Shown: positions 1,395 through 14,061 of the stretch, piece after piece
Position numbering within the stretch: the first letter of the stretch is position 1
Layout of the letters: each line of letters starts with the position of its first letter
DNA from: Chloroflexota bacterium
GTDB taxonomy: Bacteria; Chloroflexota; Limnocylindria; Limnocylindrales; CSP1-4
Length of the DNA: 38,654 nt
Reading direction: 5' to 3'
NCBI GenBank assembly: GCA_017881905.1
Contig: JADGQI010000111.1
Span: forward strand, 1-38,654
Notes under the pieces: model-generated
Told to the model about the DNA's origin: nothing
The model's input: the letters and a program-made list of their open reading frames with translations, nothing else
Databases searched by the model: none
Program-made: the position numbers and the translations under genes

Positions 1395-2447
1395 ATGGCG
1401 CAGCTCTCCCGGAAGATCCCGCTGGCCGAGCTGCACTGCCATCTCGGAGGCGCGGTGACCCCGGCCATCATGTGGGGGATCGCCCACGCCCAGGGGATCA
1501 AGCTCCCGACCAAGGACTACTGGGAGTTCCGCGACCTCATCACCGTCTCGCCGCGACGGGCCCGCAGCTTCGACGGCTACCTCCAGCTGTTCCATTGGAC
1601 GGAGCTCATCCAGTCGAGCCCGTTGGCGGTCGAGCGGGCGGTCTACGAGGTCGTCGGCGGCGCCTATCGCAAGAACAACGTGACCACCATCGAGCTCCGG
1701 TTCAACCCGATGAAGCGGAACCGCGGCGGCGAGCAGGACCTGGACCACATCATCGCGGCGGCCCTGCGCGGGATGGACAAGGCGACGCTCGAGTACCCGG
1801 TCAAACCCGGTCTGCTGTTCTGTCTCGATCGGGCGTTCCCGTACGAGCTCAACGAGATCCTGGTCGAGAAGGCCATCCACTGGCGCGATCGCGGGATCGT
1901 CGGGATCGACATCGCGGGACCCGAGTCGGCCACCTTCCGCGTCGCGGACTACAAGCGACTGTTCCGTCGGGCCCGCCAGTACGGGCTCGGCCTGACCATC
2001 CACACCGGTGAATCCGGCCCGATCGACGAGGTCGCCCGGGTGATCGAGCTGCTCGAGCCCGACCGCATCGGCCACGGGGTCAAGGCCGCCTACGACCCGC
2101 GCGCGATGGCGATGCTGGCCGACCGCGGGATCGTCCTCGAGATCTGCCCGACGTCGAACCTCAACACCCGGGTCGTGTCGGGCTGGGACGAGTTCCGCTG
2201 GATCTTCGACCAGTTCCGGCGCAACGGGGTCCGCTTCACGATCAACACCGACGGCCCGGAGATGCTCAAGACCTACATCCGCGATGAGCTCGCGACCCTC
2301 GGACGGCTCGGGATCCTGTCGCTCGAGGACCAGCAGCGGGCGGCCGAGACGTCACTCGCCGCGGCGTTCGTGCCGAACGTCTCGGACGTCCCGGCCGCGG
2401 TCCTCGAACCCGCGCCCCGCGGCGTGGTGGAGCGCGAAGAGGCCTAG
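1395..2447 (+). CDS. adenosine-deaminase-family metal-dependent deaminase
   Basis: Amidohydrolase-superfamily TIM-barrel enzyme of normal length (350 aa). The metal site is complete: H14-x-H16 (HCHLGG), H203 in HTGE with E206, H227 in IGHG and D286 in INTDGP. Two positions that touch substrate in classical adenosine deaminase differ. The Asp after H-x-H-L is Gly18 (HLGG rather than HLDG), and the second Asp of the usual NTDDP is Gly287. The deaminase chemistry therefore looks intact, but the nucleoside accepted may not be plain adenosine. Cotranscribed with lipA (3-nt gap). It ends 7 bases before the convergent nucleotidyltransferase gene. Confidence 0.8.
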   Translation: MAQLSRKIPLAELHCHLGGAVTPAIMWGIAHAQGIKLPTKDYWEFRDLITVSPRRARSFDGYLQLFHWTELIQSSPLAVERAVYEVVGGAYRKNNVTTIELRFNPMKRNRGGEQDLDHIIAAALRGMDKATLEYPVKPGLLFCLDRAFPYELNEILVEKAIHWRDRGIVGIDIAGPESATFRVADYKRLFRRARQYGLGLTIHTGESGPIDEVARVIELLEPDRIGHGVKAAYDPRAMAMLADRGIVLEICPTSNLNTRVVSGWDEFRWIFDQFRRNGVRFTINTDGPEMLKTYIRDELATLGRLGILSLEDQQRAAETSLAAAFVPNVSDVPAAVLEPAPRGVVEREEA

Positions 2448-2454
2448 CTCCGGG

Positions 2455-3579
2455 TCAAACGGTGTCGTGCCGGACCCGACGGACGCCCCGCTGGTGGAGG
2501 ATCCTGCGGGTCGACCGGCGGATGCTCGAGCCGAGCGCACGAGCGATCTGCCCGGCCCCGTCCTGCTCGAAGACCCGCAGCGTCAGGTGCGGAGTCTGAT
2601 CGGTGTCGCCGGGTGGAGCGGATCGGAAGGTCGCTCCGCCGCCGCACGTCCGCTCGAGGAGCTCTCGCTTTGCGGTCGGGATCCGGAAGCGTTCGAGCAC
2701 GCCGGGGGGCGGGCTGGCCCCGAGGAATCGGTCGGCCATCGACAGGACGAGCCAGGTCGTGGTCCGCGCTCCGATCCGGTCGGCCCGGTCGGCGACCGCC
2801 TCCCAGTCGAGCTCGGCTCCATTGCTTCGGACCAGCTCCGCGATGTCGCAGTTCCAGCGCAGGCGCAGCGGTGATCGGCTCCGATGGATCGCTAGATGGA
2901 TCAGGGTGTCCTCGAGGCTCAGCAGCCGGACGGGGCGATCGAGCAGCGTCCCGGGGGCGGAGCGGTCCCACAGGCCGTCGATGTCGGAGCGGAAGAAGCG
3001 ATCCGCCCACAGGTCGCGGTGGAGCTCGAGACGGACCGACTCGTTGCCGTCGCCGACGTACCAGGGCGGGTCGTGGAACTCGTGGACCAGCGCGTGGAAG
3101 GTGAGCTCCTGCGCCTGCCGATAGCCGAGCTCGACCAGGACCCGCCGGGCGACGGTCAGGTCAGGCTCGCGGACGAGAACGTCCAGGTCCGCAGCGCCGC
3201 GGGAGGCGAGCGAGCCGTACAGCCGCTCGGCGATGACGAGGCCCTTCACCGGCATCGCCGGCACGTCTGCGGCCGACAGCCCGTCGAGCACGCGGCCGAG
3301 CGCGTCGGCCATCCGTCCGTTGCGCAGCAGGGTCACGTGGCGCCGGCGGATCGCGCGCTCGAGCCAGGGGCCCGAGACCGCGTCACCCGCCGCCTGGGGG
3401 AGGCTGACGGCGAGCAGCGGCAGGACGTCGTGGCGGTGGCCGAGGTCCCACATCCGGTCCCAGTCCAGCCCTGCCTCGACCAGGCGCCGGAGGTCGGCCG
3501 TCTGGACCGCGGTCAGACGCGTCCGCGCCCCGAGGCAGAGCGCCTGAAGCTCGGCATCGAGATCGGTCAGCTGGCGCAT
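2455..3579 (-). CDS. NTP_transf_5-type nucleotidyltransferase, last gene of the RiPP-like cluster
   Basis: 374 aa. Residues around 110-145 contain PVKG..(10)..YGS..SRGAADLDVLV, the signature of the 'uncharacterised nucleotidyltransferase' family (PF14907): a GS pair followed by D-x-D, expected to bind metal and NTP. Members are known near PqqD-like and HPr-kinase-like genes in peptide-tailoring and exopolysaccharide clusters, but the transferred group is usually unknown. The start has a GAGGAG ribosome site and lies 13 nt after the permease stop, so it belongs to the same operon. The inferred role is transfer of a nucleotidyl group to the modified peptide or a partner; this is not shown by sequence alone. 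Confidence 0.75.
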   Translation of the reverse strand: MRQLTDLDAELQALCLGARTRLTAVQTADLRRLVEAGLDWDRMWDLGHRHDVLPLLAVSLPQAAGDAVSGPWLERAIRRRHVTLLRNGRMADALGRVLDGLSAADVPAMPVKGLVIAERLYGSLASRGAADLDVLVREPDLTVARRVLVELGYRQAQELTFHALVHEFHDPPWYVGDGNESVRLELHRDLWADRFFRSDIDGLWDRSAPGTLLDRPVRLLSLEDTLIHLAIHRSRSPLRLRWNCDIAELVRSNGAELDWEAVADRADRIGARTTTWLVLSMADRFLGASPPPGVLERFRIPTAKRELLERTCGGGATFRSAPPGDTDQTPHLTLRVFEQDGAGQIARALGSSIRRSTRRILHQRGVRRVRHDTV

Positions 3580-3592
3580 CCGGCCTCGCTCC

Positions 3593-4447
3593 TCAGTACT
3601 GGGCCAGGCTGCCGTCGGTCCGGCCGTAGCGGATGGCGAGGGAGCACGAGATGAGCCCCGCCGCCAGGTAGATCGCGCTCAGGGCGACGAGCGCGACGAA
3701 CTCCGGGATCGCCGCGGTGATCCCGGTCCCCAGGAGGATCGATCCGCGCAGGATGACCAGGGCGTGGGTCATCGGCAGTAGCTCGCCGAGCGCCTGCAGC
3801 CCGGCCGGCAGGACGGCGGTCGGGTAGAACACGCCGCTCAGCACGATCGACGCACCCTGGAGCAGCCAGCCGACGGGGTTCCCACGCTTGATGACGATGA
3901 CGACGCCGCCGGCCAGCAGGCCCATCCCGGTGAACCCGACCATCGTCACGAGCAGGGCGAGCGCCGTCGCCGGGAGGTCCGCGTGCGAGAAGTCCGCTCC
4001 GAGCAGCGCTCCAGCGACCAGGTAGGTCACCGCACCGATGGCGGCCGACACCTGGAGCCAGATGGACGTCGACATCAGCACGGTCGAGAGTCGCGACGGG
4101 CTGAGGACCATCAGCTCGAGCGTCCCGGTCGTCTGGCTCTCGCGGAGGCTCCCGCCGATCCCGCCGACGGTCTGGCCGAGGAACTGCTGGAGGGCGACAC
4201 CGACCAGGACGAACGCGAAGTAGTCGGCGCCGTACTTCGAGATGTCGGCCGTGTTGGCCAGGCCGAACGAATGACTGATGAAGAAGAAGACCGCGACCGT
4301 GACCACGGCGCTGCCGAGGCGCAGGACGAACCCGGCCCGATAGCTCGTCTCGATCGTCCGGTCGCGCTTGAAGAACGCGATCGGGACGCGCGCGGCGTCG
4401 GCGAGGCCGTCGAGCGGCCCGCGAGCGGTCAGCGCGCCGGCCGTCAT
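3593..4447 (-). CDS. ABC-2 type transporter permease
   Basis: 284 aa with six or so hydrophobic segments, including ones near residues 45-65, 85-105, 125-150, 160-185, 190-215 and 255-275. This is the layout of DrrB/ABC-2 export permeases. The ATG overlaps the stop of the ATPase gene (ATGA at 4444-4447), so the two form one exporter. It lies downstream of four small precursor genes and upstream of the nucleotidyltransferase, which makes export of the mature peptide the likeliest job (inference). A lipid or polysaccharide substrate cannot be excluded. Confidence 0.85.
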   Translation of the reverse strand: MTAGALTARGPLDGLADAARVPIAFFKRDRTIETSYRAGFVLRLGSAVVTVAVFFFISHSFGLANTADISKYGADYFAFVLVGVALQQFLGQTVGGIGGSLRESQTTGTLELMVLSPSRLSTVLMSTSIWLQVSAAIGAVTYLVAGALLGADFSHADLPATALALLVTMVGFTGMGLLAGGVVIVIKRGNPVGWLLQGASIVLSGVFYPTAVLPAGLQALGELLPMTHALVILRGSILLGTGITAAIPEFVALVALSAIYLAAGLISCSLAIRYGRTDGSLAQY

Positions 4448-5505
4448 CGGGCGACCGCCTGGCGGACGAGGCTCGGGGGCGACGCGGTCCCCGGGGCGAG
4501 GGTGTGGACGTAGATCTCCTCGAGCGACAGGTCGCGCGTCTCGCAGAAGTAGACGTCCGCCCCGGCGGTCACGAGGGCACGAAGGACCGGCCCGAGTGCC
4601 TCCTCATGGGCGAGGGTCAGCCGGACGACCACCGGAGCGTCGTCCACGGCTGGCGTCGGCTCATCCGGCTCGGGACCGGCCAGGACGGCCAGCACCTCGG
4701 GCAGGGCGGCGAGATCGACCCCGGCGGTCCCCATCCGGGGGCTCAGGCGGAGCTCGCAGCGGATCCCGTAGCCGATCGTCCGGCGGAGGTCGGCGACGCT
4801 GCCTTCGGCCACGATCCGGCCGTCCTGGATGAACGCGAGGCGACGGCACAGCGCCTCGGCCTCGGGCATCGAGTGGGTGGCCAGGACGACGGTCCGACCG
4901 AGCTCGCCGATGATGTGGTCGGCGATGAACTCGCGGATCGCCACCGCCGAGATCGGGTCGAGCGACCGCGTCGGTTCGTCCATGAACAGGATCTCCGGCT
5001 CGGTCATCAGACCGCGGGCGATCGCCAGCTTCTGGCGCTGACCGGTCGACAGGTGGCCGAAGGGGCGGTCGAGGTGGTCGGAGATGCCCAGGCGTTCGGC
5101 CAGGTCGGCGATCCGGCCGGGCGTGGCCGCGGTCGGGAGATGCTGGAGCGCGGCAAAGAACTCCAGGTTCTGGCGGCCGGTCAGCCGCCAGTAGAACGAG
5201 CGCTCGTCGCCGCTCACCAGGCCGATCCGCTGGCGGACGGCATGGGGGTCGCGGGCCACGTCGAAGCCGGCGACCCTTGCCACCCCGCTGGTCGGGATGA
5301 GCAGCGTCGTCAGCATCCGGATCAGCGTGGTCTTGCCCGCACCGTTCTGTCCGAGCAGGCCGAAGACCTGGCCGGGCGGCATCCGCAGGCTGACCTCGCT
5401 CACGGCCGTGCGCTCGGTCCGGTGCGACGGCTGGACGATGTCGCGATACGACCGGAGCGGGCGGAATCGCTTGGTGAGGTTCTCGGTCTCGATCGCTGAG
5501 GTCAT
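4444..5505 (-). CDS. ABC transporter ATP-binding protein (exporter, DrrA-like)
   Basis: 353 aa. Walker A GQNGAGKTT at 52-60, signature LSTGQRQ at 152-158 and Walker B ILFMDE at 172-177 are all present, with a switch histidine in LATHSMPEAE. After the ATPase core there is a C-terminal extension of about 100 residues, common in DrrA-type exporters. It pairs with the overlapping permease. A 120-base spacer containing a strong hairpin separates it from the last precursor gene, so its transcription probably depends on read-through from the precursor region. No strong ribosome site is seen before ATG 5505. Confidence 0.9.
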   Translation of the reverse strand: MTSAIETENLTKRFRPLRSYRDIVQPSHRTERTAVSEVSLRMPPGQVFGLLGQNGAGKTTLIRMLTTLLIPTSGVARVAGFDVARDPHAVRQRIGLVSGDERSFYWRLTGRQNLEFFAALQHLPTAATPGRIADLAERLGISDHLDRPFGHLSTGQRQKLAIARGLMTEPEILFMDEPTRSLDPISAVAIREFIADHIIGELGRTVVLATHSMPEAEALCRRLAFIQDGRIVAEGSVADLRRTIGYGIRCELRLSPRMGTAGVDLAALPEVLAVLAGPEPDEPTPAVDDAPVVVRLTLAHEEALGPVLRALVTAGADVYFCETRDLSLEEIYVHTLAPGTASPPSLVRQAVAR

Positions 5506-5539
5506 GGTGTCGCGGATGGTCCCCGATATCGCGCGATCG

Positions 5540-5592
5540 GATCCGGGTGGGAGGAGTCGACGACCGAGGCGGTCGGCTCCTCCCCCTGGATC
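5540..5592 (-). terminator. strong hairpin between precursor pair B/A and the ABC genes (attenuator candidate)
   Basis: Arms 5540-5556 and 5577-5592 pair with one bulge and two mismatches (core GGGAGGAG / CTCCTCCC). The loop holds a second small stem, CGACC...GGTCG. There is no long T-run, so partial termination or an RNA-end stabiliser is more likely than full termination. Its place right after the precursors fits higher precursor than transporter expression. Confidence 0.5.
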
Positions 5593-5625
5593 GGTGACGG
5601 ATGGGCCGCGAACGGCCCCTCCGAC

Positions 5626-5736
5626 CTAGCCTGGGCCCTTGGTGAGGTGGATACCGTAGCTGGTGCTGACGGCGGCCTCCTGGGCGAGCTCATCCTCGAC
5701 ATACGTCGCGATGATCTCTGGGCTCTCGTAGTCCAT
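5626..5736 (-). CDS. RiPP-type precursor peptide A (36 aa)
   Basis: Tiny gene with an AAGGGGG ribosome site before its ATG. Residues 1-28 match the other three precursors of the cluster except at positions 2 (D), 19 (Q) and 26 (S). The shared part has Y3-E4-S5-P6-E7-I8, an acidic helix-like stretch (YVEDELA, 12-18) and V23-S24-T25-S26-Y27-G28. The variable tail is IHLTKGPG. Conserved front plus hypervariable end, small size and neighbouring PqqD-like, kinase, peptidase and export genes are what a leader/core precursor looks like. The core boundary is not known. It pairs with precursor B, which has Cys at position 26. Confidence 0.8.
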   Translation of the reverse strand: MDYESPEIIATYVEDELAQEAAVSTSYGIHLTKGPG

Positions 5737-5761
5737 TCGTGTACCCCCTTGAACGCTATCA

Positions 5762-5778
5762 CCGGCCATCACGGCCGG
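5762..5778 (-). other. small hairpin between precursors B and A
   Basis: CCGGCC (5762-5767) and GGCCGG (5773-5778) form a perfect 6-bp stem with a 5-base loop, starting one base after the stop codon of precursor B. It may stabilise or separate the two reading frames on the transcript. Confidence 0.4.
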
Positions 5779-5779
5779 A

Positions 5780-5887
5780 TCAGGTGTTGAAGACCGGCTT
5801 CTGGCCGTAACAGGTGCTGACGGCCGCCTCCTGGGCGAGCTCATCCTCGACATACGTCGCGATGATCTCTGGGCTCTCGTACTCCAT
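5780..5887 (-). CDS. RiPP-type precursor peptide B (35 aa)
   Basis: The start is preceded by GGGAGGTGA, a near-perfect match to the anti-SD, which is unusual in a window where many genes look leaderless. The front 28 residues carry the family pattern with Y3-x-x-P6-x-I8, Q19, and V23-S24-T25-C26-Y27-G28. The variable tail is QKPVFNT. The coding DNA of its first 25 codons is almost identical to that of precursor A, suggesting a recent tandem duplication. The Cys at position 26 distinguishes it from its partner A (Ser). Confidence 0.85.
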   Translation of the reverse strand: MEYESPEIIATYVEDELAQEAAVSTCYGQKPVFNT

Positions 5888-5893
5888 ATCGGG

Positions 5894-5935
5894 TCACCTC
5901 CCTTCCGCACGAATCTCCTGGACGAGCCAGGGCAT
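5894..5935 (-). pseudogene. possible relic of a second S26 peptidase 3' end
   Basis: The bases before precursor B read in frame as ...Q-E-I-R-A-E-G-R-stop. The true peptidase gene before precursor D ends ...Q-E-S-G-A-G-R-R-stop. Both share CCAGGAG, then GTGCGG, then a purine-rich AGGTGA that serves as stop codon and ribosome site together. This suggests a duplicated peptidase-precursor module whose peptidase was lost. Only about 40 bases are involved, so this is tentative. Confidence 0.3.
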
Positions 5936-5946
5936 GAGTGCCGTTG

Positions 5947-6873
5947 TCACTCGGGCGACTCCCGAGACGTTCCGACCGGGCCGCCGGTCAACAGCGCGAT
6001 CACGGCATCGACCGTCTCGTCGAGACCGGCCGATCGAAGCGTGGCGCACGCGACGCCGGTCACGACCCGCGGCAGGCGGGCGATGACCCCGTCGAAATCC
6101 CAGGCCGCGGCGGGTGTCCCCCGGAGGAGCTCCATCGTCGCGATCGCACCCGGGACGGGACTCGGCGCCGGTCGTCCGCCGGCGTCCGGATCGCCGTCGA
6201 GCAGGACGATCGCACTCAACCGGGCCGGCGCGGCGACCCGCGTCCCGAACGCCTGGTCGAGCGCGGCGGGACCGACCGCCCATTCGCTCCCACCGCCGAG
6301 CTCGTACGGTGCGACGTCGGCCAGGAACCCGAGCTCGGCGAACAGGTCGAGGGCGGGACGCCTGATGTGCAGGCCCCGGGGGTACGGCAGGATCGTCCGG
6401 TCGTCCTGGGCGACCAGGGCCAGCTCGTCCGACAGCAGGTCGAGACCGCGTCGAAGGAGCCCGAGCACGACCGTCGTCTTGCCCCGGCCGCTCCGGCCGG
6501 CGACAAGGACCGCCCGGCCGTCGAGCGCGACGACCCCCGCGTGGATCGCCAGGATCCCGATGTCGGACAGGGCGGCGATGAGGCCCCCGACGATGGCGTC
6601 GAACAGCCCGACCAGCGGCTCATCCTCGTCGCGCCAGCGGCTCGTCCGGCCGTCGGCTGCCACGATGGTCGTCCCGCCGTGGGTGTCGCGGACGAGCGCG
6701 ACCTCGACCGTCCGCCGCGCGGGGCCGCTCTGGCGGTCGTCCGACGCGAACCAGCCGTACGTGTCGTCGACCCGGGCCATCACGGCGGGATCGTTGGCCC
6801 GGACCACGAGGTCGACGCCGTGGACGCGGTACGTCGCCAGGCCCGTCGCGCGGTCGGCGAGGCGCGTCCCCAT
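5947..6873 (-). CDS. HPr-kinase-like protein 1 (peptide kinase candidate)
   Basis: 308 aa. A P-loop GRSGRGKTT (about 126-134) follows a conserved 'LAIHAGVVALDGRAVLVAG' lead-in, and a LLSDELALV segment lies about 20 residues later. This is the arrangement of HprK-related kinases found with PqqD-like proteins, and of the kinases that phosphorylate lasso peptides such as paeninodin. It is a clear paralogue of the second HPr-kinase-like protein in this cluster (shared ELGGGSEW, IVLLDG, and a matching C-terminal 'LDETVDAV' region). ATG 6873 is directly preceded by a GTG and by a GGGGGG ribosome site. The likely target is Ser, Thr or Tyr in the shared S-T-[S/C]-Y-G part of the precursors, or their tails (inference). 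Confidence 0.8.
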   Translation of the reverse strand: MGTRLADRATGLATYRVHGVDLVVRANDPAVMARVDDTYGWFASDDRQSGPARRTVEVALVRDTHGGTTIVAADGRTSRWRDEDEPLVGLFDAIVGGLIAALSDIGILAIHAGVVALDGRAVLVAGRSGRGKTTVVLGLLRRGLDLLSDELALVAQDDRTILPYPRGLHIRRPALDLFAELGFLADVAPYELGGGSEWAVGPAALDQAFGTRVAAPARLSAIVLLDGDPDAGGRPAPSPVPGAIATMELLRGTPAAAWDFDGVIARLPRVVTGVACATLRSAGLDETVDAVIALLTGGPVGTSRESPE

Positions 6874-6892
6874 CACTGCCCCCCTGGTGGGT

Positions 6893-7168
6893 TCACGCGA
6901 GCAGGTCCAGAGCCTCGAAGTTGGCGAGCGTCCGGTCGACGTCGGGGGCGACCGTCTCGGGCGAGCGGGCGTAGAGCGCGGCGAAGTCGGCCACGAGCCG
7001 ATCGAGCGGGCGCCCGTCGCACAACTCCCAGAGCTGGGCTGCGGAGCCGTTGATCACGTGGGCCTTGCCGTTGCGTCCATCGTGGAGGATCGCCTCGCGG
7101 CCGACGCGCTGGAGGGTCACATCGGGCCGGGCGACCGGGCCCGCAGGCGGACGATCGTCGATGGTCAT
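6893..7168 (-). CDS. PqqD-like RiPP recognition protein
   Basis: 91 aa, the usual size for a stand-alone PqqD/RRE protein. The middle holds the family pattern 'VINGSAAQLWELCDG' (about 38-52), a short strand followed by the winged-helix core, then an acidic helix ending in 'LANFEALDLL'. Such proteins bind leader peptides; in lasso clusters the recognised leader has Y-x-x-P, which is also present in all four precursors here. A GAGGGAGC ribosome site precedes ATG 7168. The gene lies between the two precursor pairs and just upstream of HPr-kinase-like protein 1. Confidence 0.85.
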   Translation of the reverse strand: MTIDDRPPAGPVARPDVTLQRVGREAILHDGRNGKAHVINGSAAQLWELCDGRPLDRLVADFAALYARSPETVAPDVDRTLANFEALDLLA

Positions 7169-7292
7169 CGAGAGCTCCCTCGCCGGTACATTCGGGTCAT
7201 CCGATTGTCGGCATCGGTACCGGTCATGTCGAGGGCATGAGACAGGTCGTGGTGTCCCGAGACACCGGCGGGGCGCATCGCCCGGACATGGA

Positions 7293-7331
7293 ACGACCGG
7301 CCCGTCGGCGCGTCGCCAGCGGGCCGGTCGT
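7293..7331 (-). terminator. strong hairpin after precursor pair D/C (attenuator candidate)
   Basis: ACGACCGGCCCG (7293-7304) and CGGGCCGGTCGT (7320-7331) form a perfect 12-bp GC-rich stem with a 15-base loop that itself has a GGCG/CGCC stem. It starts 9 bases after the stop of precursor C. No T-run follows, so partial termination or 3'-end protection of a short precursor RNA is the likely effect. Confidence 0.55.
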
Positions 7332-7340
7332 CAGTGGACG

Positions 7341-7442
7341 CTACTGATAGACGATGTTGCCGTAGCAGGTCGAGACCGCCGCTTCGGCGGCCAGCTCATC
7401 CTCGACATACGTCGCGATGATCTCTGGGCTCTCGTACTCCAT
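7341..7442 (-). CDS. RiPP-type precursor peptide C (33 aa)
   Basis: Short gene with a GGAGGGAG ribosome site. Residues 1-28 follow the family pattern: M-E-Y3-E-S-P6-E-I8, A19, and V23-S24-T25-C26-Y27-G28. The variable tail is NIVYQ. Compared with precursor D over codons 1-28, ten codons differ silently and only one (position 26, Cys/Ser) changes the residue, so the amino-acid sequence of this part is under strong purifying selection. It is followed by a 12-bp hairpin. Confidence 0.85.
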   Translation of the reverse strand: MEYESPEIIATYVEDELAAEAAVSTCYGNIVYQ

Positions 7443-7468
7443 GAGGCTCCCTCCAGTGTCGCCGGTCG

Positions 7469-7570
7469 TCAGACCGGGAAGGTATTGCCATAGCTGGTCG
7501 AGACCGCCGCCTCCGCAGCGAGCTCGTCCTCCACATAGGTCGCGATGATCTCGGGGCTTTCGTACTCCAT
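7469..7570 (-). CDS. RiPP-type precursor peptide D (33 aa)
   Basis: First precursor of the operon. Its ribosome site GGAAGGAGGTGA overlaps the stop codon of the S26 peptidase gene and is close to a perfect anti-SD match. The front matches the family (Y3-x-x-P6-x-I8; A19; V23-S24-T25-S26-Y27-G28) and the variable tail is NTFPV. It has the most diverged DNA of the four but the same front peptide, which argues for real selection on the protein. It pairs with precursor C (Cys at 26). Confidence 0.85.
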   Translation of the reverse strand: MEYESPEIIATYVEDELAAEAAVSTSYGNTFPV

Positions 7571-7575
7571 GGGCT

Positions 7576-8148
7576 TCACCTCCTTCCCGCACCTGACTCC
7601 TGGGTGATCGGTGCCAGCATCAGCCGGGTCGGGGCCCGGGCAAGGGTCGGGATCGCGCGCAGCGCGGTCCGACGGATGGGAGCAGGGGAGTGTTCGGCGA
7701 CACGTCTGGCGACCCGGGCGCCGCGACCGGCCGAACGCGAGACGCCGGCGATGATCCTGGCCGAGCGCCCGCTGAGCCCGCGACGAAGGACCGGCCCGGA
7801 TGCCTCGCGTCGGACGCCGCGGACCACGCCGAGGACGTCCTCGAGGGACAGCGGAGGATCGAAGTCAGCCTCGTTGTCGCCCTTGACGATGAGCTGCTCG
7901 CGGCCGTCGCGCCAACGGCTGCCGACGAGACGGTGCGCCACGATCCCATCGTACCGCTCGAACACGACGACCTCGCCGACCCGCGATGGCGTGGCGCCGA
8001 ACGCGACGAGCATCCGGCCACCGGGACCGACGAGCGGGTGCATGCTCGTCCCGCGCGTCTCGAGCCAGGCCTCGGTGCCCGTGTCGCGGTATCCCAGGTA
8101 CAGCCCGAGCAGCGCCGTCGCCCGCGGATCGCGTGCATCGCCGGTCAT
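7576..8148 (-). CDS. S26-family (ER-type) signal peptidase-like protease, leader-peptidase candidate
   Basis: 190 aa. S35 lies in GTSMHPL (box B of S26 peptidases). The second catalytic residue appears to be H72 in 'IVAHRL', as in ER/SipW-type enzymes, rather than Lys. KGDNEADFDP (89-98) matches the conserved Gly-Asp box. No clear membrane segment is visible at either end; the C-terminus is an arginine-rich, amphipathic stretch. ATG 8148 overlaps the stop of HPr-kinase-like protein 2 (ATGA), and the gene stop overlaps the ribosome site of precursor D. The likely job is leader removal from the precursors (inference). Longer starts upstream would lie inside the kinase gene and are rejected. Confidence 0.8.
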   Translation of the reverse strand: MTGDARDPRATALLGLYLGYRDTGTEAWLETRGTSMHPLVGPGGRMLVAFGATPSRVGEVVVFERYDGIVAHRLVGSRWRDGREQLIVKGDNEADFDPPLSLEDVLGVVRGVRREASGPVLRRGLSGRSARIIAGVSRSAGRGARVARRVAEHSPAPIRRTALRAIPTLARAPTRLMLAPITQESGAGRR

Positions 8149-9095
8149 CGCGCCAGCTCCAGCGCCGAACCGACGGCGGTGACCGTGTCGTCGAACCGGC
8201 CCACCGACAGGCGCAGGCACGGTACGCCGGACAGCATCCGACCCACGGCGTCGAGCGTCCCGGCGAAGTCGACCGAGGCCGCCCAGGTGCTCCGCATCAG
8301 CTCGACCGCCGCGACCGCCGGCGACACCTCGACGATCCGGGGCGCGGTGGATGGGTCCGGCGTCCCGTCGAGCAGGACGATGCCGCCGAGCGACCGGGGC
8401 TCCTCGAGGCGACCGCCGAGGAGGTCGACCACATCAGCCTGGCTCACGGTCCATTCGCTCCCGCCGCCGAGCTCGTCGAGCGGTCGGGACCGGAGCGAGG
8501 CCAGCTCGGGCAGCAGGTCGAGCGTCGACGGCCGGACGTGGACGGCGCGCCGATACGGTCGCACGACGTCGCCGACCGGGTCGAGCAGCGCGAGCTCATC
8601 GGACAGGAGTCCGCGACCGGCCCGAACGAGACCGAGTACCAGCGTGGTCTTGCCCTGCCCACTGCGGCCAGCGACGACGATGGCCCCGTCGGGTCCGGCG
8701 ACCGCGCCGGCGTGGGCAGCCAGGATCCCCGCCGTGTGCAGCCGGGCGACGATCGTCCCGACCATCCCCTCAAGCAGGCCGAACAGCCCCTCGGTCGCCG
8801 ATCCGAGCCGGTGGGACCTGCCCACGGGGTCGTCGAGTCGACACGGACCGCCCTCCCCGAGGTCGACCAGACTGAAGCTGGAGGTGGTCATCGGGGTGGC
8901 CGCCGGGGCGGAGAACCGGAAGGCCGCGTACGTCGCGTCGACGACGGCGAGCACGTCGGGCAGGTCGGACGTGACCGACAGCCCGACCCCGAGGACGTCG
9001 TAGTCGAGGCGGTGGCCGTCGCCGCGGGGGCCGACAACCGGGAGCGCGTCGTCCGCGGTGCTGACGATCGCAACAGGTCCCAGGTCCGATCCCAT
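8145..9095 (-). CDS. HPr-kinase-like protein 2 (peptide kinase candidate)
   Basis: 316 aa. P-loop GRSGQGKTT at 143-151, preceded by 'ILAAHAGAV', followed by LLSDELALL; later ELGGGSEW and IVLLDG blocks match its paralogue in this cluster. It heads the biosynthetic genes and overlaps the peptidase gene by 4 nt. The frame is open much further upstream, but that extension is Arg/Pro-rich, unlike the paralogue, and runs through the promoter region and into the opposite frame of the regulator. ATG 9095 has the same GTGATGGG start context as HPr-kinase-like protein 1. Two kinases for two precursor pairs suggests a dedicated kinase per pair (inference). Confidence 0.8.
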   Translation of the reverse strand: MGSDLGPVAIVSTADDALPVVGPRGDGHRLDYDVLGVGLSVTSDLPDVLAVVDATYAAFRFSAPAATPMTTSSFSLVDLGEGGPCRLDDPVGRSHRLGSATEGLFGLLEGMVGTIVARLHTAGILAAHAGAVAGPDGAIVVAGRSGQGKTTLVLGLVRAGRGLLSDELALLDPVGDVVRPYRRAVHVRPSTLDLLPELASLRSRPLDELGGGSEWTVSQADVVDLLGGRLEEPRSLGGIVLLDGTPDPSTAPRIVEVSPAVAAVELMRSTWAASVDFAGTLDAVGRMLSGVPCLRLSVGRFDDTVTAVGSALELAR

Positions 9096-9182
9096 CACCG
9101 AGAGGCGCCCCCGTCCGATGACGGCCGTCGGCCGCCGTTGCCTCGTTCGCGGACGGCCGCGAGCGACCGTCCCCGTGGTCCG

Positions 9183-9212
9183 ATTGTGGGCGGAACGGAG
9201 GATTCCTGTCGA
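9183..9212 (-). promoter_or_regulatory. candidate promoter of the RiPP-like operon
   Basis: On the minus strand TCGACA (9207-9212) and CACAAT (9183-9188) are 18 bases apart, giving 5/6 and 4/6 matches to a housekeeping -35/-10. Transcription would start near 9176, leaving a leader of about 80 bases before ATG 9095. That leader includes a GGACGG...CCGTCC hairpin (9151-9172). Confidence 0.45.
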
Positions 9213-9229
9213 GCGAGGGACGGCACGGA

Positions 9230-9249
9230 GTGGTGCGTCGACGCACCAC
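9230..9249. promoter_or_regulatory. 20-bp perfect palindrome, operator candidate
   Basis: GTGGTGCGTC followed by GACGCACCAC is a perfect two-fold palindrome without a spacer. It lies between the regulator stop (9274) and the kinase start (9095), 18 bases upstream of the predicted -35 box. The site suits a dimeric winged-helix regulator, most simply the SufR-like neighbour. Its position upstream of the -35 would suit activation more than repression. Confidence 0.55.
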
Positions 9250-9273
9250 CGAGCGGGCGCTTCGAGCGGCCGA

Positions 9274-9990
9274 TCAGCCGATCCGCGAGGAGACCCGGTA
9301 GGTGCAGCAGCGATCCCCGGCGGCGATGTGCGAGTCGCGCACGACGTCCGCATCGAGGACCTCGCTGAACAGCGCCAGCTCCGCGTCACAGGCCCGGGTC
9401 GTCCCACGAGCGACCTGGAAGATCGCGCAGTTGTGCTCCACGAGGCGGATGGTGCCGTCAGGGGTCACCTCGGCCTGGGCGATATAGCCCTGCTCGTCCT
9501 GGATGACCGCCAGCTCGCGGACCCGGTCGATGAGCGAGGCACCCGCCGGGAGTCGCTCGGCGATCCGGGACCGCATCCAGGAAGCCGCCTGGCTGCGGCG
9601 AGCGCTGAAGACCTGATCCACGAGGTGGTCGCCGCCGACCTCGTCGATGGCGGCCAGGAGCCCGGCCGCCAGGCCGTCGTAGTTCGACGGGAAGAGATCC
9701 TGGGCGTGCGGCGTGACGTCGTACAGGTGCCGCGGTCGCCCGACCCCGTGCCGTTCCGGTCGGCGGGCCACGAGGTCCGCCGCTTCCAGCGCGCGAAGCT
9801 GCTGGAGGATCCCCGTCCGGCTGGCGTGCAGGCGCGCGGCCAGCTGATCGGGGGACGACGGTCCGAGCTGGCGGAGCAGGACGAGGATGTCTCGTCGGAG
9901 GGTGTGCGGAAGGTGATGGCCGTTCGTTCCGACGGTCTCGGCATCGGCGCCGTGGGCGGTCGGCTCGGGGGCGCGCTCGATACCCGGCAT
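9274..9990 (-). CDS. SufR-like winged-helix regulator with a predicted Fe-S cluster site
   Basis: 238 aa. The N-terminal part (about 28-95) is an ArsR/DeoR-like winged helix ('LRRDILVLLRQLGPSSPDQLAA', then a basic wing 'RPERHGVGRPRHLY'). The C-terminal part has C188-x12-C201-x27-C229, with an additional C228. This is the spacing I recall for mycobacterial SufR-type regulators that hold a 4Fe-4S cluster; the third Cys of cyanobacterial SufR is absent. A TAGCCT box (9997-10002) lies 6 nt before ATG 9990, so transcription is probably leaderless. No suf genes are in the window. Its position at the head of the RiPP-like cluster suggests control of that cluster in response to redox state, NO or Fe-S status (inference). 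Confidence 0.75.
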   Translation of the reverse strand: MPGIERAPEPTAHGADAETVGTNGHHLPHTLRRDILVLLRQLGPSSPDQLAARLHASRTGILQQLRALEAADLVARRPERHGVGRPRHLYDVTPHAQDLFPSNYDGLAAGLLAAIDEVGGDHLVDQVFSARRSQAASWMRSRIAERLPAGASLIDRVRELAVIQDEQGYIAQAEVTPDGTIRLVEHNCAIFQVARGTTRACDAELALFSEVLDADVVRDSHIAAGDRCCTYRVSSRIG

Positions 9991-10070
9991 GGCCGAAGGC
10001 TAGCACCGTGCTCGGCGCGGCGCTGTCGTCGAGATGACCTGCGCCTCGATCCGCGATGTACGCTGCGGCC

Positions 10071-11237
10071 GTGGACCTCGACCTGTCGCCCGAACACGAG
10101 CTCCTCCGGACCACGGTCCGCGAGTTCATGCTGGCGGAGGTCGCCCCCGTCGTCGACGAGCACGAGCGGGCGCGGCGATTCCCGAGTGCGATCGTGGCCC
10201 GCCTCGGTGAGATGGGCTGGCTGGGGATCCCGATCCCCGAGGATGAGGGCGGCGCCGGCCTCGACACGCTGGCCTACGCCATCGCGATCGAGGAGATCGG
10301 CCGGGTGTGGGGCTCGCTCGGGCTCATCGTCGCGGCCCACACCAGCCTCGGCTGCGGACCGCTCCATCTCGCCGGGACCCCGGAGCAGAAGGCGCGATTC
10401 CTCGTCCCGATGGCGGCCGGCAGAGTCATCGGCGCATACGGGCTGACCGAGCCGGGGGCGGGCTCGGATGCCGCCGGGACGCGGACGACCGCCCGTCACG
10501 AGGACGGGCCCGACGGCGGGACGTGGATCCTGGACGGTGGCAAGCGGTTCATCACCAACGCCGGCCAGGCCGGCACGTACATCGTCACCGCGCGGACCGG
10601 CATGAGCGGGACGAGCCAAGCGGAGATCTCGGCCTTCATCGTGCCCGCCGACACGCCGGGCTTCAGCGTCGGCCGGCTCGAGGAAAAGATGGGTCTCCAC
10701 GCCTCGGCGACCGGCGAGCTGGTCTTCGACGGCGTGCGGATCCCGGCCGGCAACCTGCTCGGTGAGCGAGGGGGCGGCTTCCGGACCTTCCTCACGATCC
10801 TCGATGGCGGCCGGATCTCGATCGGGGCGCTCGCCGTCGGGCTGGCCCAGGCCGCCCTCGACGCCGCGATCCCGTACGCGCGGACGCGCGAGCAGTTCGG
10901 CCGGCCGATCGGGACGTTCCAGGGCGTGGCGTTCCTCATCGCCGACATGGCCACCGAGATCGAGGCGGCCCGGCAGATGGTCTGGCGGGCCGCCTGGCTC
11001 AAGGACCAGGATCGGGACTTCGCGCTCGCCGCGGCCCAGGCCAAGCTGTTCGCGTCGGAGGTCAGCTCCCGTGCGACGAACGCCGCGATCCAGGTCCACG
11101 GCGGCTACGGGTACGTCGAGGAGTACAAGGTCGAGCGCTACCTGCGCGACGCGAAGCTGACCGAGATCGGCGAGGGGACCAGCCAGATCCAGCGACTGGT
11201 GATCGCGCGGCGGATCCTGGGGCTGCGGGTCGTCTGA
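10071..11237 (+). CDS. acyl-CoA dehydrogenase
   Basis: About 388 aa with the three-domain layout of acyl-CoA dehydrogenases. Visible marks are 'YGLTEPGAGSDAAGTRTTA' (FAD/substrate loop), 'KRFITNAG', 'REQFGRPIG', 'QVHGGYGYVEEYKVERYLRDAKLTEIGEGTSQIQRLVIAR' near the end, where the Glu of 'IGEGTS' is the catalytic-base region of short-chain members. I chose GTG 10071 because it lies 6 nt after a TACGCT box (10059-10064); an ATG at 10056 would add five residues. Divergent from the SufR-like regulator. Its stop and the stop of the convergent sortase-like gene lie in one small palindrome. Confidence 0.92.
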   Translation: MDLDLSPEHELLRTTVREFMLAEVAPVVDEHERARRFPSAIVARLGEMGWLGIPIPEDEGGAGLDTLAYAIAIEEIGRVWGSLGLIVAAHTSLGCGPLHLAGTPEQKARFLVPMAAGRVIGAYGLTEPGAGSDAAGTRTTARHEDGPDGGTWILDGGKRFITNAGQAGTYIVTARTGMSGTSQAEISAFIVPADTPGFSVGRLEEKMGLHASATGELVFDGVRIPAGNLLGERGGGFRTFLTILDGGRISIGALAVGLAQAALDAAIPYARTREQFGRPIGTFQGVAFLIADMATEIEAARQMVWRAAWLKDQDRDFALAAAQAKLFASEVSSRATNAAIQVHGGYGYVEEYKVERYLRDAKLTEIGEGTSQIQRLVIARRILGLRVV

Positions 11238-11244
11238 GCCGGGC

Positions 11245-12000
11245 TCAGTCGTCCCGGTAGAGCCGGACGATGAGCCGGTCGCGGTCGTGCGGGCCGACGC
11301 ACGTCTGGAGGGTCATCGAGGGACGGGCCTGTCCGGCATAGGCGAACCCGCCGGCGGTCGGCAGGACGACCCGCCACCACGCCACGGAGTAGCGCTGGAC
11401 GTGACCACCGGCGTCCGCATACGAGACGGCCATCCCCGTGCGCAGCCGTCCCTGCACGTACAGATCGTGCAGCCGGCGGAACGGACCTCCGGCGTGGGCG
11501 AACAAGTAGATGTTGTTCGGACCGGCACAGCCCCAGCGATAGACCATGAAGTCCGGGGGCCGTGATCGGCTGCACGAGAACCAGCTGACGCCGCGGTCCA
11601 GGCCGAGGCTGGCGCTCCAGACGTGGTTGCGCCCGTGGTGCTCGCGGACCGGCGGCGTTGTCCGAGGCGGCTTGGCCGCGGCCTCGGCTGGTTTCGCGGC
11701 CGTCACCACCGCCGGGGGAGCCGCCCGGATCTCGTCGGGGGCCCGATCCACCTCGAGCGACGGACCCACGCTGGCGACGAGGCTCGGATCCAGGATGAAT
11801 TCCGCTCGCAGACCGGGTCCAATCGCGGGGGTGACCGTGGCCGTGAGCGCGCCGAGTCGAAGGTCGAGATAGCCTGGGGCCGTGCTCGGTGCCGCTGCGG
11901 CCGCCGGACCGACCGCGCCGACGCTCAGCACGGTGATGGCGAACGCGACGGCGCAGCCGCGCACGCGCCCGAGGAGACGCCTACGGGTGATCGGATCCAT
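11245..12000 (-). CDS. exported sortase-like transpeptidase
   Basis: 251 aa. The N-terminus has TRRRLLG followed by a hydrophobic stretch ending AAAAAP, a possible Tat or Sec signal. A Pro/Ala-rich linker (about 90-120) leads to a C-terminal sortase-type domain: H169 in 'NIYLFAHAGGPF', C234 in 'TLQTC', R246 in 'RLIVRLYR'. These are the three catalytic residues in the right order. This resembles the small class E/F-type sortases of high-GC bacteria. No LPxTG-like substrate gene is seen nearby, so its partner is unknown. A CACGAT box lies 6 nt before the ATG. The lipoprotein gene upstream is on the same strand. Confidence 0.75.
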   Translation of the reverse strand: MDPITRRRLLGRVRGCAVAFAITVLSVGAVGPAAAAAPSTAPGYLDLRLGALTATVTPAIGPGLRAEFILDPSLVASVGPSLEVDRAPDEIRAAPPAVVTAAKPAEAAAKPPRTTPPVREHHGRNHVWSASLGLDRGVSWFSCSRSRPPDFMVYRWGCAGPNNIYLFAHAGGPFRRLHDLYVQGRLRTGMAVSYADAGGHVQRYSVAWWRVVLPTAGGFAYAGQARPSMTLQTCVGPHDRDRLIVRLYRDD

Positions 12001-12732: not shown

Positions 12733-14061
12733 GTGCCCGAGATCCGCCCCTTCCGCGGCCTGCGCTTCGAGCCGGATTCCGTCGGCGACCTCGCCAACGT
12801 CGTCAGCCCTCCATACGACGTCATCTCACCCGTCCAGCAGCGAGCCCTGATGGCGCGCGACCCGCATAACGTGGTGCGCCTCGACCTACCGGCCGACGAG
12901 CTGGGCGACGAGCCCGACGACCGCTATCGACGGGCCGCGCGGACGTTCGCCGCGTGGCGCTCGGACGGCTCGTTCCGGAAGGACCCCAAGCCGGGCCTGT
13001 ACGTCTACGAGCAGGCGTACCGGGTCCCCGGCACGGACGTCGAGCGGACCCAGCGCGGCTTCTTCGGCCGGCTCCGACTCGAGCCGCTGGTGCCCGGCGG
13101 GGGCGTCCTGCCCCATGAGCGGACGCTGTCCGGCCCCAAGGAGGACCGCTACAAGCTCCTGCGCGCCACCGGGGCGAACTTCAGCCCGGTCGTCGGACTG
13201 TACGCGGACGCGAGCGGCAACGCCTCGGAGCTGCTTGGGCAGATCGCTCGGACGACCCCGACGATCGATCTCGCGGACGACGATGGGGTGCGCCATCGAC
13301 TGTGGGTCGTTCCGGGCGACGACGACGAGACCGGACCGGTCAAGCGGCTGATCGCGGCTGCCGCGGCTGCGCCGATCACGATCGCCGACGGACACCACCG
13401 TTACGAGACCGCGCTGCGCTATCGCGACGAGCGCCGGATGAGCCGATCGTGCGAGGAGGATCCGCCGTTCGACTACCTGATGATGCTGTTCCTCGAGACG
13501 ACCGCCGAACCACTTACGGTGCTCCCGACGCACCGCGTCGTCCGCGGGCTAGGCGAGCCGGGCGTGGAGGCGCTCTGGGGCGGGCTCGCGGACCTGTTCG
13601 ACGTGGAGCGAGTCGCCGCGTCGGACGAGCTCGAGGCTCGTTTCGGGACGGCGGTGGCCGCGACCGCCGGAGGCAACGGACGATTCGGCCTGTGGACCCG
13701 TGACGGTGGGGCCGTCCTGGTCGCCCGGCGCGACGCGTTCACGGCCGACCTGCCGTCCGGGAGCGACGCCCTGCGCCGGCTGGACGTGGTCCTGCTCCAG
13801 GTCGCCCTCGACCGGCTGTGCGGGATCGACCCAGCAGCCACCGCCGCCGGCGGGCGGGTGGCCTATACCAAGGCCGCGGCCGAGGCCATCGGCTGGGTCG
13901 ATCGGGCCGATGACGGGTCGGATGCCGCGTTCCTGCTCGAACCGACGCCCGTCGCCGATATCGCCGCCGTCGCGATGGCGGGCGACGTGATGCCGCAGAA
14001 GTCGACCTACTTCTACCCCAAGCCTGTGACCGGGCTCGTCATCAACCCGCTCGAGTGGTGA
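12733..14061 (+). CDS. DUF1015 family protein
   Basis: 442 aa. The opening 'IRPFRGLRF....GDLANVVSPPYDVIS' and later 'TIADGHHRYETALRY' (about 215-230) are hallmarks of the DUF1015 family (PF06245), widespread and of unproven function; in many genomes it sits near D-3-phosphoglycerate dehydrogenase or serine metabolism genes, which are absent here. The start is GTG with a GAGGAGGA ribosome site a few bases upstream. A TAGGAT box lies about 40 bases before the start. The C-terminal 'MPQKSTYFYPKPVTGLVINPL' is also typical. Divergent from the lipoprotein gene. Confidence 0.88.
   Translation: MPEIRPFRGLRFEPDSVGDLANVVSPPYDVISPVQQRALMARDPHNVVRLDLPADELGDEPDDRYRRAARTFAAWRSDGSFRKDPKPGLYVYEQAYRVPGTDVERTQRGFFGRLRLEPLVPGGGVLPHERTLSGPKEDRYKLLRATGANFSPVVGLYADASGNASELLGQIARTTPTIDLADDDGVRHRLWVVPGDDDETGPVKRLIAAAAAAPITIADGHHRYETALRYRDERRMSRSCEEDPPFDYLMMLFLETTAEPLTVLPTHRVVRGLGEPGVEALWGGLADLFDVERVAASDELEARFGTAVAATAGGNGRFGLWTRDGGAVLVARRDAFTADLPSGSDALRRLDVVLLQVALDRLCGIDPAATAAGGRVAYTKAAAEAIGWVDRADDGSDAAFLLEPTPVADIAAVAMAGDVMPQKSTYFYPKPVTGLVINPLEW

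Follow-up and report, generated by a model that had tools for sequence, protein, structure and literature searches.

A candidate phosphopeptide gene cluster with four short precursors and no detected ring-forming enzyme in a Chloroflexota genome

The window, meaning the whole stretch of DNA analysed here, comprises 38,654 nucleotides (nt) of a Chloroflexota metagenome-assembled genome (MAG; assembly GCA_017881905.1, contig JADGQI010000111.1). It carries a gene cluster of the type that makes ribosomally synthesised and post-translationally modified peptides (RiPPs), all on the minus strand. Eleven collinear open reading frames (ORFs) were confirmed at 2455-9095, four of them only 33-36 codons long, so that order, strand and sizes are as the initial annotation of this DNA had claimed. 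In the direction of transcription these are an HprK-like kinase (kinase 1, 8145-9095, 316 aa); an S26-type signal peptidase of archaeal/SipW-like kind, the putative leader peptidase (7576-8148); precursors A1 and A2; a PqqD-like RiPP recognition element (RRE; 6893-7168, 91 aa); a second, sister HprK-like kinase (kinase 2, 5947-6876, 309 aa, starting at GTG 6876 or ATG 6873); precursors A3 and A4; the DrrA-like ATPase (4444-5505) and the DrrB-like ABC-2 type permease (3593-4447) of an ATP-binding cassette (ABC) exporter; and an NTP_transf_5 nucleotidyltransferase (2455-3579, 374 aa). Overlaps of 4 nt, described earlier as numerous, occur at just two junctions, kinase 1/S26 (8145/8148) and ATPase/permease (4444/4447).

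Each small gene was recognised by alignment and by its DNA pattern: A1 (MEYESPEIIATYVEDELAAEAAVSTSYGNTFPV, 7469-7570), A2 (MEYESPEIIATYVEDELAAEAAVSTCYGNIVYQ, 7341-7442), A3 (MEYESPEIIATYVEDELAQEAAVSTCYGQKPVFNT, 5780-5887) and A4 (MDYESPEIIATYVEDELAQEAAVSTSYGIHLTKGPG, 5626-5736). Their alignment has 25 columns invariant in all four, their leaders carry the motif Y3-x-x-P6-x-I8, and a Shine-Dalgarno-like sequence precedes every one of them. Leader differences fall mostly at third codon positions; over the 84-nt leader A1 and A2 differ at 11 sites, and ten codon changes are synonymous. The last 5-8 residues have almost nothing in common, giving hypervariable C termini. Since invariant columns, ribosome-binding signals and third-position drift coincide, these genes are far from chance ORFs and show the pattern of a RiPP precursor family. 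No homologue of them was found outside the window's genome among 151 genomes of the class, GTDB contigs, plasmids and viral contigs.

A sigma-70-type scan found only two promoter-like elements in 2400-10100, one upstream of kinase 1 (TCGACA-N19-ACAATCGGA, 9179-9212) and one upstream of the PqqD-like gene (TCGACA-N18-ACAATCGGA, 7200-7232). The joint pattern TCGACAN{14,19}ACAATCGGA has these two sites only in the 2.58-Mb genome; it was derived from the two sites themselves, and chance alone would also predict no further copies, so that what counts is their agreement with each other. Strong GC hairpins without a T run lie 3′ of both precursor pairs, a single one after A2 (7275-7345, -42.7 kcal/mol, z -3.7) and two after A4 (5535-5625, -56.7 kcal/mol, z -4.6). 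The cluster is thus probably two transcription units rather than one, kinase 1-S26-A1-A2 and PqqD-kinase 2-A3-A4-ABC-ABC-nucleotidyltransferase, and the hairpin at 7275-7345 is a probable end or attenuation point of the first. The pairing of the precursors, together with two kinases that are 45% identical, suggests a past duplication. Upstream, as had been noted, lies a regulator gene, encoding a SufR-like helix-turn-helix protein with C-terminal cysteines (9274-9990, minus strand; TIGR02702 87.4 bits, under the cut-off of 178.8); its membership in the cluster is uncertain, because a gap of 178 nt with a promoter-like element separates the two.

The PqqD-like protein matches PF05402 at 44.8 bits (cut-off 23.4) and is a discrete RRE; with TIGR04353 (PqqD_rel_X) it scores 30.6 bits, under the curated cut-off of 35. 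Its AlphaFold model is mediocre (pLDDT, the model's own confidence score, 69.5), and the best PDB matches are lasso B1-leader complexes at E about 0.06, not significant though consistent with an RRE. Kinases 1 and 2 match HprK_rel_A at 49.1 and 52.8 bits, over the P-loop region only and against a curated cut-off of 200; their models are uninformative (pLDDT 42). Both keep the His, the P-loop Lys (GRSGQGKTT in kinase 1) and the first Asp of the family, with SDE in place of DD, that is H-K-D-E and not His-Lys-Asp-Asp. DD is found in kinases of clusters resembling the linear polyphosphorylated peptides (LPP) discussed below and in most radical SAM-associated ones; SDE recurs in several HprK-rel-A-like relatives. 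The two window kinases group together in the kinase tree as a clade of their own (100/98), separate from the clade of LPP-like clusters (100/100) and from that of radical SAM clusters (100/100). The peptidase matches sigpep_I_arch TIGR02228 weakly (31.6 bits, under the cut-off of 51.85), and the S26 tree did not resolve its placement; its Ser35, His72 and Asp97 align with those of related S26 proteins, and the His-Asp spacing of 25 equals that of LppS (H68, D93), the LPP leader peptidase. The remaining assignments are clear: ATPase, TIGR01188 239.5 bits and ABC_tran; permease, PF01061 40.8 bits and ABC2_membrane; nucleotidyltransferase, PF14907 172 bits with a visible GS-x9-DLD motif. No match was obtained for kinase 2 in GTDB contigs, for kinase 1 and S26 in plasmids, for S26 in viral contigs, or with PADLOC and PHROGs.

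The claim that known cyclases are lacking extends beyond the cluster. Lasso B2 protease (PF13471), Asn-synthetase-like cyclase (PF00733) and YcaO were all undetected in the window's genome, a 78%-complete MAG, and a lasso peptide was rejected as a reading for want of the first two. There is no radical SAM maturase within the cluster, and the six radical SAM genes of the genome are all housekeeping (MoaA, MiaB, LipA, RlmN, HemW, KamA); modification in trans by an enzyme of radical SAM or YcaO type is improbable.

Whole-genome searches for relatives covered the window's own phylum, where an S26 profile matched 33 of 400 genomes. Many of the S26 loci have adjoining PqqD and HprK genes, in two styles. 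One includes a radical SAM enzyme, in about ten relatives (e.g. L079-L082, L084, L094, L095, L098, G348); the other lacks it and runs precursor-S26-PqqD-HprK-ABC (L092, L093, L105, L106). Precursors were sought as short ORFs that start with ATG, have a ribosome-binding-site-like sequence and encode the motif [YW]xxPx[VLI]. Of 21 S26 loci, 13 have such a YxxP-type precursor near the peptidase gene, compared with one of the 14 HprK loci that lack S26 (Fisher p 0.0015); leaving out two loci found through the precursor search gives 11/19 against 1/14 (p 0.004). Motif ORFs have a density of 0.13 per kb near S26 and 0.011 per kb far away. Since the HprK loci without S26 that were examined generally have no such precursor, precursors go with the S26 peptidase and not with HprK, PqqD or the nucleotidyltransferase as such. 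The earlier proposal to look for precursors beside HPr-kinase-like genes in relatives therefore bore fruit at S26 loci, which supports the precursors, and yielded little at HprK loci lacking S26.

In precursors from the phylum, hydrophobic residues are followed by a small one at a distance of 19 (in one case 20) residues from the motif's Tyr/Trp; these putative cut sites were read from sequence. In this register the window leader would most likely be cut after Ala21, [A/Q]EA|AVST[S/C]YG, so that Glu would occupy -2 and Ser +3, matching FET|AxS of LPP. In that system residues -3 to -1 affect cleavage, and phosphorylation occurs at Ser3 (PMC13381572); comparison with it and with the relatives suggests Ser24 (core Ser3) as the phosphorylation site. 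For A1 to A4 a cut after Ala21 predicts [M+H]+ values of 1242.600, 1317.614, 1514.731 and 1487.785, and one after Ser24 985.463, 1060.477, 1257.593 and 1230.648, with 79.966 to be added for every phosphate.

The best reading of the locus, at a probability of roughly two in three, is a cyclase-free RiPP cluster of linear-phosphopeptide kind, which supports the earlier view of four precursors modified by phosphate instead of rings. The PqqD-like protein would bind the leader through Y3-x-x-P6-x-I8 and pass the precursor to an HprK-like kinase, which would add at least one phosphate to a conserved hydroxyl residue just past the cut site, most likely Ser24. With PqqD again as its guide, the S26 peptidase would take off the leader, most likely after Ala21; the NTP_transf_5 enzyme may further decorate the phosphate with a sugar or nucleotide; and the DrrAB-like pump would export four linear peptides of 12-15 residues, alike in AVST[S/C]YG and differing in their last 5-8 residues. 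We favour this because a conserved leader with a hypervariable tail recurs in four copies, because RRE, kinase, S26, NTP transferase and exporter stand together in two tight units in a genome where no cyclase was found, and because the catalytic residues of S26 are conserved. The precursors at matching positions in S26 loci of the phylum and the cut register that falls after Ala21 point the same way, as do the LPP experiments, in which kinase, RRE and SpI peptidase do these very steps (PMC13381572).

Several points weigh against it. The cut site is a prediction, and a cut after Ser24 (AVS|T), though our second choice, would be nearly as good. Both kinases carry Glu for the second Asp of the paeninodin-type motif, a residue reported essential in a paeninodin-type kinase. 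The HprK, S26 and PqqD matches all lie under curated subfamily cut-offs. As no precursor homologue was found outside this genome, the evidence for the peptides comes from four paralogues of a single MAG.

LPP were described by Popov et al. on 20 May 2026 (PMC13381572) and are defined by SpI, RRE, HprK-like kinase, NTP transferase, MsbA-like exporter and YxxP precursors; experimentally, LppK phosphorylates, LppS cleaves in an RRE-dependent manner and LppN has no visible effect, and the family was called Bacillota-restricted. With the same parts already published, the peptide class can no longer be called previously unknown, as it had been. The window shares with LPP the YxxP leader, discrete RRE, HprK-like kinase, archaeal-type SpI leader peptidase, NTP transferase and an exporter, the lack of both cyclase and B2, the frequent occurrence of multiple precursors that are conserved at the N terminus and vary at the C terminus, and, if the preferred register holds, the placement of Glu at -2 and of Ser at +3. 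It differs in having two SDE kinases instead of one HprK-like kinase, a split DrrAB-like ABC-2 exporter instead of an MsbA-like one, and four precursors with 12-15 aa cores, where LPP have one to three and the LppA core is 45 aa. Only YxxPx[I] remains of the LPP motif YxxPxVLxHQxIxFETxxS, the distance from Tyr to the predicted cut is three residues longer, and the host belongs to Chloroflexota, not Bacillota. Because two published family features fail (leader motif and exporter type) and a third, the kinase motif, is doubtful, we set the cluster beside LPP and not within it: it would work like LPP yet is a variant, a divergent cousin.

The four related clusters without radical SAM (L092, 8213-10476; L093, 6069-10515; L105, 11102-15479; L106, 5132-9432) have a YxxP precursor, S26, PqqD, HprK and an MsbA-like ABC exporter, in genomes of a class of the window's phylum with very large genomes; their cores read ALA|[TA]SG with Ser/Cys-rich tails. 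They resemble the window in these operon parts and differ from it in a single operon kinase of DD type with its own clade, in exporter type, and in a single precursor with a longer core. They are closer to LPP than the window is, and, if the phylum is Chloroflexota, extend LPP beyond Bacillota; that phylum fits the high GC and relatives among which is a class whose genomes reach 13.7 Mb. Phosphorylated lasso peptides (paeninodin, pseudomycoidin, Bsf) share with the window the discrete RRE, HprK-like kinase, NTP transferase and YxxP/WxxP leader, and differ in their B2 protease and Asn-synthetase-like cyclase. HPr-rel-A sets (NCBIfam TIGR04352/TIGR04353) supply the best NCBIfam models for both kinases and the PqqD protein, have SDE in several relatives and an NTP_transf_5 partner; the window scores under their cut-offs (52.8 and 49.1 against 200; 30.6 against 35), and HprK loci without S26 generally lack YxxP precursors. 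The radical SAM-PqqD-HprK-S26 clusters (G348 and others, with SynChlorMet-like parts) share S26, PqqD, HprK and YxxP precursor, and G348 also the exporter pair type (ATPase E 3e-80, permease E 2e-60); they differ by their radical SAM enzyme, conserved-Cys precursors and separate kinase clade.

Other explanations can be set against the linear phosphopeptide. As a tentative alternative, the cluster may stand for a class of its own among linear RiPPs modified with phosphate, one that is independent of the Bacillota LPP. Its pair of SDE kinases would then work with the nucleotidyltransferase to assemble, on the AVST[S/C]YG cores, a composite group linked through phosphate (nucleotide, sugar or polyphosphate), and the products would be four secreted 12-15-mers with swappable tails. 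Somewhat less probable is that the kinase-like and nucleotidyltransferase proteins do other chemistry, such as nucleotidylation or phospho-sugar transfer, yielding a linear nucleotidyl- or glycosyl-phosphorylated peptide, with SDE marking an altered HprK activity. SDE is indeed common to both kinases of this separate clade, two kinases beside a single NTP transferase hint at modification in multiple steps, and PsmN, the pseudomycoidin nucleotidyltransferase, is required for hexose addition to phosphoserine; the retained H, P-loop Lys and first Asp nevertheless make phosphoryl transfer simplest, and LppN was without visible effect in the LPP system (PMC13381572).

We consider it unlikely that a radical SAM or lasso cluster has been split here, with its cyclising or crosslinking enzyme encoded at another locus or in the 22% of the genome that the MAG lacks. 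Some ten relatives in which S26, HprK and PqqD accompany a radical SAM enzyme would fit such a split, as would the fact that the closest exporter counterpart found is that of G348 and that two of the four precursors have a Cys near the conserved Cys position of radical SAM precursors. The other two cores have no Cys, however, all four are much shorter and show no multi-Cys pattern, the window kinases fall outside the radical SAM clade, and the radical SAM genes that were found are housekeeping. Least probable is a degenerate operon or non-RiPP function, with the small ORFs as transcription-control leader ORFs and the enzymes devoted to cell-surface polysaccharide chemistry: hairpins do follow both precursor pairs, and three related genomes of the same family have HprK-like genes without PqqD or S26, but the leader's conservation as protein under synonymous drift, the hypervariable C termini, the YxxP motif, the RRE protein and similar precursors in S26 loci all speak for peptides.

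Phosphate as the main modification is nearly unstudied among peptide natural products. Judging from the window and its relatives, a module of signal peptidase plus RRE, accompanied by YxxP precursors, seems to be widespread in a phylum other than Bacillota, in both linear-phosphopeptide and radical SAM settings, and linear phosphopeptide chemistry seems wider and more varied than reported. The predicted cores are unusually small and suited to mass spectrometry, the four natural variants indicate which residues the enzymes tolerate, and the SDE kinases offer a way to test what the second catalytic Asp does.

Some further loci came up in the survey. L028 and L029, from two genomes of the window's own family, have tandem HprK-like pairs with no S26, PqqD or precursor detected. 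L043 (6067-9390) has two tandem HprK-like genes followed by a YcaO-like-looking protein, possibly another RiPP type. L047 (6884-13837), like L079, L081, L082, L084, L095 and L098, is a radical SAM-PqqD-HprK-S26 RiPP cluster; in all of these, kinase and signal peptidase share a radical SAM setting, and the Y/WxxP precursors have conserved cysteines, e.g. MKSLYETPEVSMVELRPSEAVLGNCKVEALYEGPGFGGADCVGVPPGRQCLWVGS. L091 has a lasso-like precursor (YEPPQIIEELELTTRAGSPISKPDDELDLFGLGE, 13620-13766) near an S26 gene. In the window itself, a sortase-domain protein is encoded on the minus strand at 11245-12000, near the cluster and outside it.

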